In this document: piece by piece, positions 60,753 to 64,000 of the stretch
Layout: each line of letters starts with the position of its first letter
Numbering within the stretch: the stretch's first letter is position 1
Origin: Ruminococcus sp.
GTDB lineage: Bacteria; Bacillota; Clostridia; Oscillospirales; Ruminococcaceae
Assembly (NCBI GenBank): GCA_017484095.1
Contig: JAFUTU010000033.1
Coordinates: 62,001-126,000 of the forward strand
Length of the DNA stretch: 64,000 bases
Direction of reading: 5' to 3'
The notes under the pieces: generated by a model
Database searches by the model: none
What the model was told of the DNA's origin: nothing
What the model saw: only the letters and a program-made list of their open reading frames with translations
Made by a program: the position numbers and the translations under genes

Positions 60753-61415
60753 TCACTTACTGTCGGCTGCTGGATCATTTTTATCGGTTTTTTCTTTTTT
60801 ATCCTCTACAAGAGAGCTAAAAAGTATGGATAGAAAATTGAAAAAGATTATCCAAATGATAATGACAACGATCAGCTTCGCTTCCATCTTTGCCATTATA
60901 TGCCCAGCTTTTGGTATCTGAAACTTGTATGTTCCGACTATCTGTTCAGGCTTAACAGGCCTAGCATCAACAACATCATTAGCATCACCCTTCATGATGT
61001 ACAAACCGTCAACAATATCGTTGACCCTATGTGTTACGAATGTGCCTTGTGGGGCAATGAGCTTTGCAAGGAAGCTATTATTGTCTGTTTCTATCACATC
61101 ATCTTCTGACGTATCGCCCTTGCCGATGTTTTTTGCATCGGAGGGATCCTCCAGCTTGTAGGTGATAATATCTCCAATTTCGGGTGTCGTCATCTTACCG
61201 TCTACAAATGCGACCGCACCTGAACTTATCTCCGGCTCCATTGAGCCGCTTTCAACGATATACGGAGTTATGTCAAAGAATCTCGGTACAACGAATACCG
61301 CCGCAGTAAGCAGCACACCGATCGTTCCGAGAGTTACTATAGCTCCGAAAATCCTTGAAATGATCTGAAGTGTTTTTCTTGATTTGGAGGGTCTCTTATC
61401 CTGCTTTTCTTCCAA
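60753..61415 (-). CDS. sipW: SipW-type (ER-type) signal peptidase I
   Basis: 220 residues with two transmembrane helices (about 24-45 and 183-202). Catalytic Ser58 is in VESGSMEP and the usual bacterial Lys is replaced by His129 (FVTHRVND), the Ser-His dyad of archaeal/ER and SipW signal peptidases. The C-terminal domain ends in a charged cytoplasmic tail. It likely processes the YLTDTE-type signal peptides of the genes just upstream. Start is TTG with AGGAGG seven bases upstream. Confidence 0.9.
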   Translation of the reverse strand: MEEKQDKRPSKSRKTLQIISRIFGAIVTLGTIGVLLTAAVFVVPRFFDITPYIVESGSMEPEISSGAVAFVDGKMTTPEIGDIITYKLEDPSDAKNIGKGDTSEDDVIETDNNSFLAKLIAPQGTFVTHRVNDIVDGLYIMKGDANDVVDARPVKPEQIVGTYKFQIPKAGHIMAKMEAKLIVVIIIWIIFFNFLSILFSSLVEDKKEKTDKNDPAADSK

Positions 61416-61430
61416 AACGATACCTCCTAT

Positions 61431-61470
61431 TTACAAAATAAAAGCCGGAGAGTGCTAACCTCCGGCTTTT
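61431..61470 (-). terminator. Terminator between TasA-like gene and sipW
   Basis: 11-bp stem AAAAGCCGGAG / CTCCGGCTTTT followed on the minus strand by ATTTTG. It probably lowers sipW expression relative to the fibre genes. Confidence 0.75.
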
Positions 61471-61481
61471 GGATAGTAACC

Positions 61482-62231
61482 TTACGAAAGTGGATTACCT
61501 GCAATGTCAAGCACATTATTGGAATCAGCTTCCTTGTTGGAAACGACATTGGTAACGTGCTCATCATTCAAATATGCTGTTTTCAGCTTGCCGAGATTTT
61601 CAGCGCCGATATTATCAGCCGTAAGCGTCAGCTTTGTACCATCAACAGCAACATCATCAGCCTGAATTGCAAATGCGGTGACAACAATCTTCTGTGCCTC
61701 TTTTCCGGTTATCTGCGAATTTTTCAGATTGGCAAGCTCTACGTAGTCGAAAAGCGCTGTTGTATCTTCATATGTAGAGCCTTCTGCTGCCGCCAGCACC
61801 TCGTTATATCCGAAGTAGTAAACGTATGCTGTCTTATCAGTATTAAGCTCTTTGGAGAGCTGCTTCCAGCCGTCACCGAAAGTGCTTTCTGCAAGAACGG
61901 AGCTTGTATCAGTGCCTGTTCCATAGTTGAAGAGTTCGACAGGAGCCGTATCGCCGTTTATAACAGGAGATTCAAGCTTGATAAAAGCCACCGCATCGTT
62001 TTCGCCAGTGTTCAGTACAACGGGGTTTTTCTCGACAGCCTGATTTGGTCTTACTTTCGCGACCTCGGTATTATCCCACTTGGTCTCTGTCAAGTCAATA
62101 GACAGACCGGTGATCTCAAATTCATTTTCAGCCTTTTCGGTGTCAGTCAAATAAGCGAGTGTACCGCCAATAGCAACTGCACCGAGCATAGCACAAGCCA
62201 TGGAAGTGATAGCTATTCTTTTCTTATTCAT
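61482..62231 (-). CDS. TasA/CalY-like protein with SipW-type signal, copy 1
   Basis: 249 residues. A SipW-dependent signal peptide (KKRIAITSMACAMLGAVAIGG) is followed by TLAYLTDTEKAENEFEI and a beta-rich domain (IDLTETKWD, KNPVVLNTGENDAVAFIKLESP, VVTAFAIQADDV). TasA and camelysin are secreted fibre subunits of this family. Very similar to the next gene upstream. GGGAGGG lies seven bases before ATG. Confidence 0.85.
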   Translation of the reverse strand: MNKKRIAITSMACAMLGAVAIGGTLAYLTDTEKAENEFEITGLSIDLTETKWDNTEVAKVRPNQAVEKNPVVLNTGENDAVAFIKLESPVINGDTAPVELFNYGTGTDTSSVLAESTFGDGWKQLSKELNTDKTAYVYYFGYNEVLAAAEGSTYEDTTALFDYVELANLKNSQITGKEAQKIVVTAFAIQADDVAVDGTKLTLTADNIGAENLGKLKTAYLNDEHVTNVVSNKEADSNNVLDIAGNPLS

Positions 62232-62258
62232 TGAAAATCCCTCCCTTAGATGTCTGCA

Positions 62259-63038
62259 TTACGGAGTGGCAGGATCAGCTGAGCTTCCGGAAGCTCCCCC
62301 TGATGTAGTAGTAACAGCATCAGCTTTATATGTTGCAAAAATTTTTTTAAGTGTAGCGGCATCGCTGAGAGATGTTGTGCTGATCGACGAATTATCGGTA
62401 TCATAAAGATTATCAGCTTGAATTGCATAAGCAGTTACAATGATCTTAGCGGCATCGGGGTTAGAATCGCTGCTGATGTAATTTTTCAGATACACATAAT
62501 CGAACACGGATTCTGTTGAACCACTGCCTGCAACTACAGAATTATAGCCAAAAAGATAAACAACGTAATCATCATCTGTGTCATCAGCATCGAGTAAGAC
62601 CCAATTCTTACCGTTACTGTCACTGTCAGTTACATTGAACGCATTAGCCGTCAGCTTTGTTTGTGTTCCGGTACCAAAGAAGAACAGTTCCTGTTTATCA
62701 GGTGATCCGCCTTTTTGGGTTGTGATCATTGCTTTTGGAGATCTAACTTCAACAAAAGTAACTATGTTTTCATCACCTTTGTTTACAACAACAGGATTCT
62801 TATCAATAAGTGCATTAGGTACAGTATTCTTTGTACCCGCATCAGAGGAATCGTCAGGATCCGGAGTTACATCTGGATTCCATTTTGTTTCTGTTAGATC
62901 AATATCAACATCTTTGGCAATAGTGAAATTGTTGGTTTTTGTTTCAGTATCTGTCAGATACGCAAGCGTACCGCCGACAGCGAGCGCGCCCAGCAAGGCA
63001 ACAGCGGCGACAGTAGTGGTCAGTCTCTTTTTTTCCAT
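62259..63038 (-). CDS. TasA/CalY-like protein with SipW-type signal, copy 2
   Basis: 259 residues, paralogue of the protein at 61482. Signal peptide with LLGALAVGGTLAYLTDTETKTNNF, then IDLTETKWNPD, KNPVVVNKGDENIVTFVEVRSP and IIVTAYAIQADNL. The C-terminus is Gly/Ser-rich (TTSGGASGSSADPATP). I infer a secreted fibre-like or surface subunit. AAAGGAATAC precedes ATG. Confidence 0.84.
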   Translation of the reverse strand: MEKKRLTTTVAAVALLGALAVGGTLAYLTDTETKTNNFTIAKDVDIDLTETKWNPDVTPDPDDSSDAGTKNTVPNALIDKNPVVVNKGDENIVTFVEVRSPKAMITTQKGGSPDKQELFFFGTGTQTKLTANAFNVTDSDSNGKNWVLLDADDTDDDYVVYLFGYNSVVAGSGSTESVFDYVYLKNYISSDSNPDAAKIIVTAYAIQADNLYDTDNSSISTTSLSDAATLKKIFATYKADAVTTTSGGASGSSADPATP

Positions 63039-63052
63039 AATAGTATTCCTTT

Positions 63053-64000
63053 CTACGTATCATTGTCATCTTCATTTGACTTGTTCCGTCTTGGTCTAAT
63101 TACGAACATTATAAGTACAGCGCTTCCCAGCAGACCGATCTGTCCGACCGGAGAAGCCAGACCCGTTTTTACGTTGTCAATGAATTTACCGATAACGGTC
63201 TTTGAAGTGTCGTCATGAGGCGTACTGTCAGTCGATGATGTTGTCGCAACGGCAGAAGAATCGTCCGCTGAGGTTGTGCTTGAAGAATCATCGATTGTTG
63301 TACTCGACGGACTGTCCGAAGTTGAGCTTGACGGATCATCTGGAGCGGTCTCATCGTGGAAATCTGCCGTGAATATCCATTTCATTGCCGTTGTCGTAAG
63401 GGCGTATTGATTTTTTAATCCCCTGGGAACATAGATGGTAAAATCCAGCTGTCCCGAATCGCCCGGATACAGGGTAGCAAGCAGTGTTTTATTCATCACG
63501 CTGCCGTCCATTTTTCCATTGTAAAGCTCCGTACCTCCGTATGATATCGTTATGTCAAGCTGTGAGAGCAGTTCGCTTTCGTCAAGCTTTTCTATACGGA
63601 AGTACATATCCACCGCTTTTGAATAGTTATTCGCAAGTTGAACAGTGTCCGAGATCGTATCGCCGGGCATTAGTGTGCCCCACATATTTATTATGTCATC
63701 ACCGTAACGGACAAGTCCCTCTGCACCGTTCTCAAACTCGATAGAGAGCAGCGAGCCGTAGTCATAGTCAGATTTTGTGTTATGGACACATTCCTCGATC
63801 ACTGTTCCAAACCACGGATCGTCAGAAGTAAGGTCAGGGTCAAAATTCTTGGTCTGAACTACCTCTGCCACTATATCGACTGTAAACTTTTTACCCGACT
63901 GAGAGTTTTTAATGGTGCTTGGTATAGTCAGACCTCGAATAAAAGTAACGTTATCCTTTGAGGGAAGAGGAGTTTTTAGGTAATAGTAACTGCCTTTCTT
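63053..64000 (-). CDS. Membrane-anchored beta-domain surface protein of the SipW locus, partial
   Basis: At least 315 residues; the 5' end is outside the window. The visible part is beta-rich (MPGDTISDTVQLANNYSKAVDMYFRIE, TLYPGDSGQLDFTIYVPRG), then a long Ser/Thr/Asp linker, a transmembrane helix near the C-terminus (VGQIGLLGSAVLIMFVI) and RPRRNK. This layout suggests an anchor or minor subunit for the fibre proteins. Ends 15 bases before copy 2. Confidence 0.75.
   Translation of the reverse strand, partial: KKGSYYYLKTPLPSKDNVTFIRGLTIPSTIKNSQSGKKFTVDIVAEVVQTKNFDPDLTSDDPWFGTVIEECVHNTKSDYDYGSLLSIEFENGAEGLVRYGDDIINMWGTLMPGDTISDTVQLANNYSKAVDMYFRIEKLDESELLSQLDITISYGGTELYNGKMDGSVMNKTLLATLYPGDSGQLDFTIYVPRGLKNQYALTTTAMKWIFTADFHDETAPDDPSSSTSDSPSSTTIDDSSSTTSADDSSAVATTSSTDSTPHDDTSKTVIGKFIDNVKTGLASPVGQIGLLGSAVLIMFVIRPRRNKSNEDDNDT

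Follow-up and report, generated by a model that had tools for sequence, protein, structure and literature searches.

SipW-type signal peptidases occur together with TasA-like subunits in several described systems. In Bacillus subtilis, which carries tapA-sipW-tasA, donor strands pass from one TasA subunit to the next, and TapA, which has been regarded as the wall anchor of TasA, is the predicted giver of the first donor strand (parts of PMC9674648 consulted). Bacillus cereus combines sipW-tasA and calY with CapP, an assembly factor whose C-domain retains the protein at the cell wall (parts of PMC13082335 consulted), and Clostridium perfringens carries the operon sipW-bsaABCRSD. Given the precedents of TapA and CapP, a cell-bound partner is as an idea not new. 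Here we describe a locus in a 64,000-nucleotide (nt) stretch of Ruminococcus sp. (contig JAFUTU010000033.1, positions 62,001 to 126,000; the whole stretch is called the window), in which an operon with a SipW-type peptidase, several TasA-like subunits and a membrane-anchored protein probably encodes a surface fibre of the TasA type together with its own cell-bound base.

Like the B. subtilis set, the locus combines SipW with TasA-like subunits, and the profiles of its subunits and of one anchor domain match Bacillaceae TasA/camelysin. Unlike that set, it has several subunits and, besides them, a two-domain protein with a C-terminal membrane anchor as well as a large secreted one, and sipW comes last; no TapA/YqxM-named family was among the NCBIfam and Pfam matches of eight proteins, the presence of such a model in these libraries being unchecked. 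The C. perfringens operon comes from an anaerobe too and likewise has subunits of the BsaA family alongside SipW, and sub-cut-off BsaA-family matches were found here, but the C. perfringens gene order is different and the seven genes described below include no two-component genes. In the consulted parts of PMC7395162 no anchored base or tip is described for C. perfringens, and BsaB, BsaC or BsaD may still include a related anchor. The B. cereus system resembles ours in that it, too, has multiple TasA-like subunits together with an additional assembly protein at the cell wall (PMC13082335, in part), whereas CapP is built from a DUF4047 domain and repeats and the anchor here has no such Pfam match. 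A further likeness is to sortase pili with tip pilins of the von Willebrand factor A (vWA)/GBS104-like type, since large proteins of related loci have vWA/GBS104-like domains and many anchors of relatives have LPXTG-like motifs. Unlike those pili, the shaft would be TasA-like, the genome's single sortase match, a class B-like one, lies on another contig, and the large protein of the window genome has no vWA match in a Pfam scan. The consulted passages on TasA/TapA, BsaA and CalY/CapP contain no description of a base that combines a TasA-like domain with a membrane segment, or of a vWA tip. Among the open-access papers listed we noticed none on gut clostridial SipW fibres whose base is anchored, which does not show that none exists.

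Gene content and subunits of the locus

Transcribed from the minus strand, the locus occupies positions 60753-64000 of the window in the order anchored protein (3' part of the gene, 63053..64000), subunit of 259 amino acids (aa; 62259..63038), 249-aa subunit (61482..62231), hairpin and sipW (60753..61415), and its intergenic gaps of 14, 27 and 66 nt are compatible with a single operon. The anchor gene runs on to extended position 64360 and encodes 435 aa as a whole. The contig extends 5.9 kb past the window, where three further genes belonging to this system lie upstream of the anchor gene and encode a 280-aa subunit (L004 6404-7246), a 198-aa SipW-type protein (L004 7266-7862) and a secreted-looking protein of 1070 aa (L004 7883-11095). 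We read the seven same-strand genes as one system. An earlier note on this DNA had named the peptidase, two paralogues and the anchored protein, and all of these lie on the minus strand where it placed them. It counted too few subunits, as there are three similar ones and a smaller fourth SipW-type protein, and the sequence beyond 64 kb, which it had proposed to inspect, has two more SipW-type proteins and the large secreted protein next upstream; unrelated genes there would have refuted the note, so the outcome favours it.

Both window subunits contain GGTLAYLTDTE, and they are 41% identical to each other. Each passes the cut-offs of TIGR04088 (19 bits; 33.4 bits for the 249-aa and 36.1 bits for the 259-aa subunit) and of PF12389 (22.5 bits; 27.5 and 23.3 bits, respectively), as does the 280-aa protein (27.5 bits for TIGR04088), while the 198-aa protein matched neither family. 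For the BsaA family TIGR04090 (cut-off 60 bits), the 249-aa, 259-aa and 198-aa proteins scored 33.4, 28.0 and 42.2 bits, all below the cut-off. PF12389 has three matches in the whole genome, all of them at the SipW locus. A profile of the window subunits matched a profile of Bacillaceae TasA/camelysin over its first 88 columns (97.7%, expect value (E) 1.9e-12). Where the signal peptide of the 249-aa subunit ends lies a predicted donor-strand segment (AYLTD...N.F; 62107..62156, minus strand) that is conserved in the alignment and is modelled with a predicted local distance difference test score (pLDDT) below 50 at residues 27-39; by analogy with TasA, it would act as the donor. The segment A-aromatic-x-T-D...N-x-F is conserved across 20 aligned subunits.

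The anchored protein and its relatives

The anchor has a signal-peptide-like N-terminus by eye, followed by two domains, a Ser/Thr/Asp-rich linker, the sequence NVKTG (63161..63175) at the position of the xxTGD-like motif of relatives, and a C-terminal hydrophobic segment, which appears transmembrane by eye and by hydrophobicity score, with the basic tail RPRRNK after it (63101..63145; all on the minus strand). Domain 1 is subunit-like. Domain 2 (63350..63748, minus strand) is a TasA-like body without a donor strand, as judged from profile comparison and the model of a relative, and neither our own protein nor the relatives scanned matched any Pfam or NCBIfam family above cut-off in this domain. 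In hhalign, a domain 2 profile with our own sequence as the first row matched the Bacillaceae TasA/camelysin profile over 127 columns (E 4.8e-5, probability 68%), and the match begins at position 52, past the TasA donor strand.

Structure prediction of the anchored protein, which the earlier note had proposed, was run on a full-length Blautia relative (L085, 418 aa, pLDDT 76; 30% identical to our anchor over 386 aa, E 2e-53), and TasA was nearest to the resulting AlphaFold model. The best match was the TasA fibre 8aur (Z 10.5, root-mean-square deviation (rmsd) 3.2 over 136 residues, model residues 223-362) and the second was TasA 5of1 (Z 10.1, rmsd 2.4 over 123 residues, model residues 43-353), with the next structure after the TasA entries at Z 7.7. 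Several other single-domain targets also align the model from residue 43 to near 351. Because a single-domain target at 2.4 Å hardly spans both domains, these shared ranges argue for an N-terminal strand within domain 2; as far as the aligned ranges of the model go, the strand at residues 43-53, the donor segment after the SipW-type signal, would pack into domain 2.

The anchor gene keeps close company with a subunit gene. Among 46 anchors of at least 205 aa and above 40 bits, 39 had a SipW-type subunit gene directly 5', at a median gap of 12 nt. In split loci (L134, L094, L086 and L108), the 5' neighbour matches domain 1 of our own anchor at 56.9-91.2 bits, and in others one long protein matches our anchor at 77.5-180 bits (L058, L085, L100, L110, L091, L140, L089, L117, L054, L143, L133 and L087), with both domains visible in the ten long anchors that were aligned (L054 and L058 lie outside the alignment). 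That the same pair occurs both fused and split suggests that the two parts act together.

A profile of domain 2, made from six sequences, detected the domain in 23 of 291 genomes sampled from the class and 41 of 295 from the order (the samples overlap). We examined 67 neighbourhoods, 61 of which contained an open reading frame (ORF) with domain 2; a SipW match was present in 42 of these loci, a SipW-type protein other than the anchor in 49, and either in 55 (56 if the anchor is counted as its own neighbour). As a yardstick for chance, a random point falls within 10 kb of a SipW-like gene about 7% of the time, an estimate from the 8 SipW-like matches in the 2.3-Mb window genome. Because the families are related and some weak domain 2 matches are subunits (for example, L114), stricter counts were made at 40 bits or more, where 43 of 46 loci lay beside SipW or another SipW-type gene and two of the three misses were on contigs shorter than 10 kb. 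L020, L021 and L023, which match mainly the linker end and have no SipW-type genes nearby by eye, were excluded from the 67, and no separate regions were assigned to G468:C8, G460:C7 and G606:C76:1955. When loci were instead fetched by SipW (the best 80 of at least 433 relatives), 36 carried domain 2, 24 of them at 40 bits or more, including loci from Blautia, Lacrimispora and two Saccharibacteria records; since the query comprised ten SipWs from anchor-bearing loci, this count is not fully independent.

Several related loci are of interest in their own right. Two Candidatus Saccharibacteria loci (L117 and L121) carry SipW and an anchor, fused in L117 (382 aa), and misbinning is possible. In Evansella tamaricis (Bacillaceae; L160 8260-11329), the gene after a TasA-like gene and SipW encodes 237 aa; its product matches the anchor domain weakly (24.7 bits) and carries an LPxTATN sorting signal that scores 56.2 bits against a cut-off of 32, an arrangement which suggests that wall-linked TasA partners may exist in Bacillales too. 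In Ruminococcus loci L093, L104, L106, L116, L138, L149 and L162, two SipW-like peptidases flank a protein of 295-335 aa with a PxTGD motif, and in L093, L104, L106, L116 and L138 this set is followed by a protein of 1422-1682 aa matching the C-terminal tail profile described below.

The large secreted protein, the peptidase and the hairpin

Many large proteins of these loci have a C-terminal tail in common. We scanned 27 of them, including our own and one from a locus without an anchor match (L104), most having been picked for the presence of the tail: vWA was found in 12, GBS104-like tip-pilin Ig domains in four (L048, L050, L063 and L132), a thioester domain in L085, and SpaA-like and DUF5979 domains elsewhere. 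A tail profile built without our own 1070-aa protein matches its residues 982-1066 (full-sequence E 6.6e-6), which makes it a member of the tail family, although its own tail does not score as a donor strand in the test below. The tail profile is its sole link to the L085 large protein, a BLAST comparison of the two being insignificant (E 0.13).

Resemblance between the tails and donor strands was scored with a position-specific matrix trained on the N-terminal donor segments of subunits alone, with no tails; as these N-termini had been selected by pattern, its good performance on subunits (173 of 205) involves some circularity. This score replaced a regular-expression test that proved too loose (29 of 123 proteins, with housekeeping proteins mixed in, compared with 8.3% of windows from protein bodies and 58 of 950 other tails). 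It was applied to 72 secreted-looking proteins of at least 550 aa from clusters with SipW-type genes, some of which are surely no adhesins. The best window fell within the last 45 residues in 20 of the 72, against 3.9 expected (Poisson p 7e-9), compared with 17 of 227 control proteins, for which 15.6 were expected.

The peptidase itself is a SipW-type (endoplasmic reticulum (ER)-type) enzyme of 220 aa with a TTG start. It matches TIGR02228 at 69.4 bits (cut-off 51.85) and falls below the cut-off of NF046067, the Bacillus SipW equivalog (58.9 against 190 bits). In ER-type signal peptidases a Ser/His catalytic pair replaces Ser/Lys. The pair is Ser58 (61242-61244) and His129 (61029-61031, both on the minus strand), exactly the residues given in the earlier note, and neither column varies across ten aligned SipW sequences. 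The genome has further SipW-like peptidases outside this locus, as at the contig ends G000:C34 and G000:C6 (L165 and L166), which encode an identical stretch and may be neighbours, and by eye the protein at L166 7740-9623 has a dockerin repeat-like C-terminal end.

In the gap between the 249-aa subunit gene and sipW lies a terminator-like hairpin (61440..61470, minus strand) of 12 pairs, six of them G-C, with a folding z of -2.9 against shuffles; a scan of the region gave 12 such sites compared with 6.6 in shuffles. The hairpin proposed earlier to tune the peptidase is thus present, but its tuning role is unproven, and we rejected it as a conserved regulator after a stricter hairpin-plus-T scan of relatives, which showed one in just 1 of the 86 comparable gaps that follow a subunit gene, in 0 of 29 behind SipW and in 3 of 19 behind other genes. 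Our own gap is outside the 86, as the ORF filter had removed the 249-aa gene in favour of a longer ORF that overlaps it. A terminator with read-through follows bsaA in the C. perfringens operon (PMC7395162, in part), so internal terminators are already known, although the hairpin here is still not conserved.

Just upstream of the operon (L004 11532-11939, extended 69531-69938), a 76-aa ORF resembles a recombinase C-terminus by eye, with no match in Pfam and NCBIfam scans. It is followed by a tRNA-like 3' piece, seen by eye and not called by ARAGORN, and by a perfect 14-bp hairpin, and the region is possibly the end of an integrated element. Recent transfer judged by base composition was discarded, the GC content of the operon (0.37-0.45) giving no signal against that of the window (0.41-0.44).

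A probable cell-bound base and the alternatives

We infer a scheme for fibre formation, polarity, strand-groove pairing, anchoring chemistry and the role of the tip. SipW would cut the signal peptides off the exported subunits (249, 259, 280 and probably 198 aa), and the freed N-terminal strand of each would enter the groove of its neighbour, by donor-strand exchange as in B. subtilis TasA, to form the shaft. The anchor would terminate the fibre at the cell: the last shaft subunit would lend its strand to the groove of the anchor's subunit-like domain 1, domain 2 would be completed by the anchor's N-terminal strand, and the Ser/Thr-rich linker would, with the membrane segment at the C-terminus, keep the protein at the envelope. 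The 1070-aa protein would be the probable distal adhesin, joined through its C-terminal tail, which would fill the last open groove. The adjacency to SipW-type genes (55 of 61 loci), the subunit gene directly 5' (39 of 46 cases) and the nearness of the relative's model to TasA all agree with the earlier suggestion of a cell-bound base role for the anchored subunit.

Our boldest reading, which draws its tip-shaft-base logic from relatives more than from the locus itself, is that such fibres are widespread in Clostridia and their neighbours and are fully capped, with both donor and groove in the shaft, a groove only in anchor domain 2 and a donor only at the tip. We put it forward tentatively, as a possibility falling somewhat short of an even chance. 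The same caution applies to its proposal that the tip adhesin is often vWA/GBS104-like, with domains shared with sortase pili, and that its C-terminal tail mimics the N-terminal strand of a subunit. If this were true, each fibre would consist of three defined parts, a tip, a shaft and a base linked to the cell.

A number of results weigh against a TasA-type fibre with a base and a capped tip. The model of the 249-aa subunit (pLDDT 76.6) has generic beta-sandwich matches only, none reaching Z 8, and TasA is absent among the matches listed in both searches. Our own anchor has no match when scanned with TIGR04088, and domain 2 can be aligned with the window subunit profile over 35 columns only (36%). 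The modelled anchor is that of the relative, predicted from a 19-row alignment with a predicted template modelling score of 0.61; Foldseek returned 39 matches to it at E <=0.001, of which those listed have TM-scores (template modelling scores) of at most 0.24 and do not include TasA, the TasA matches coming from the second structure comparison. A full-length anchor match occurs in only 2 of 29 genomes of the genus sample, our own and one other. Tails reach the threshold of the donor-strand score (8 or more) in just 11 of the 72 large proteins (shuffled sequences, mean 0.8 and largest 3; controls, 3 of 227), and the tail of our own 1070-aa protein scores -5.7. Finally, NVKTG lacks the proline of the usual sorting motif, and C. 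difficile SrtB fails to cleave NVQTG in vitro (consulted parts of two papers), for which reason NVKTG was dropped as a proven sortase signal. The cluster has no pilin sortase; the sole PF04203 match of the genome, on contig C6 and not on the operon contig C29, encodes the class B-like enzyme, which scores 114.3 bits against TIGR03064 (cut-off 153.75).

The same genes could instead encode matrix-type beta-sandwich polymers, with the anchored protein not a base but a chaperone or assembly factor like TapA or CapP, initiating their polymerisation or limiting it. That TapA is the predicted first-strand donor and supposed wall anchor (PMC9674648, in part), and that CapP is an assembly factor held at the cell wall by its C-domain (PMC13082335, in part), lends this explanation some substance. 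However, the anchor here combines a linker with a membrane segment at its C-terminus, with PxTGD-like or LPXTG-like motifs in many anchors of relatives, whereas 'transmembrane' is never mentioned in the consulted main text on CapP. Moreover, TapA is thought to donate a strand (PMC9674648, in part), while domain 2 of the anchor lacks one, as 0 of 45 unfused anchors reach the donor-strand threshold at the N-terminus. We consider this alternative unlikely, and one protein might fill both roles, base and assembly factor. Less probable still is that the SipW-type proteins are separate SipW-exported surface proteins with no joint assembly. The Pfam family is named for camelysin, a metallo-endopeptidase, and the number and sequence of subunits vary highly among loci, as separate proteins might, but the donor-strand segment is kept in the 20 aligned subunits and the adaptor-anchor gene pair recurs, fusions included.

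A TasA-type fibre with its own cell-bound base, the reading we prefer, bears on a point that is unsettled in this family, namely the ends of TasA-type fibres and their hold on the cell, for which TapA and CapP are the Bacillus candidates. An anchor domain that has no family above cut-off, recurs next to SipW in many anaerobes and is found both split and fused is a concrete candidate for the base, and the proteins with pilus-tip domains are a concrete candidate for the adhesin. If this is true, many commensals would have SipW fibres as adhesive pili, beyond a role in the biofilm matrix alone.

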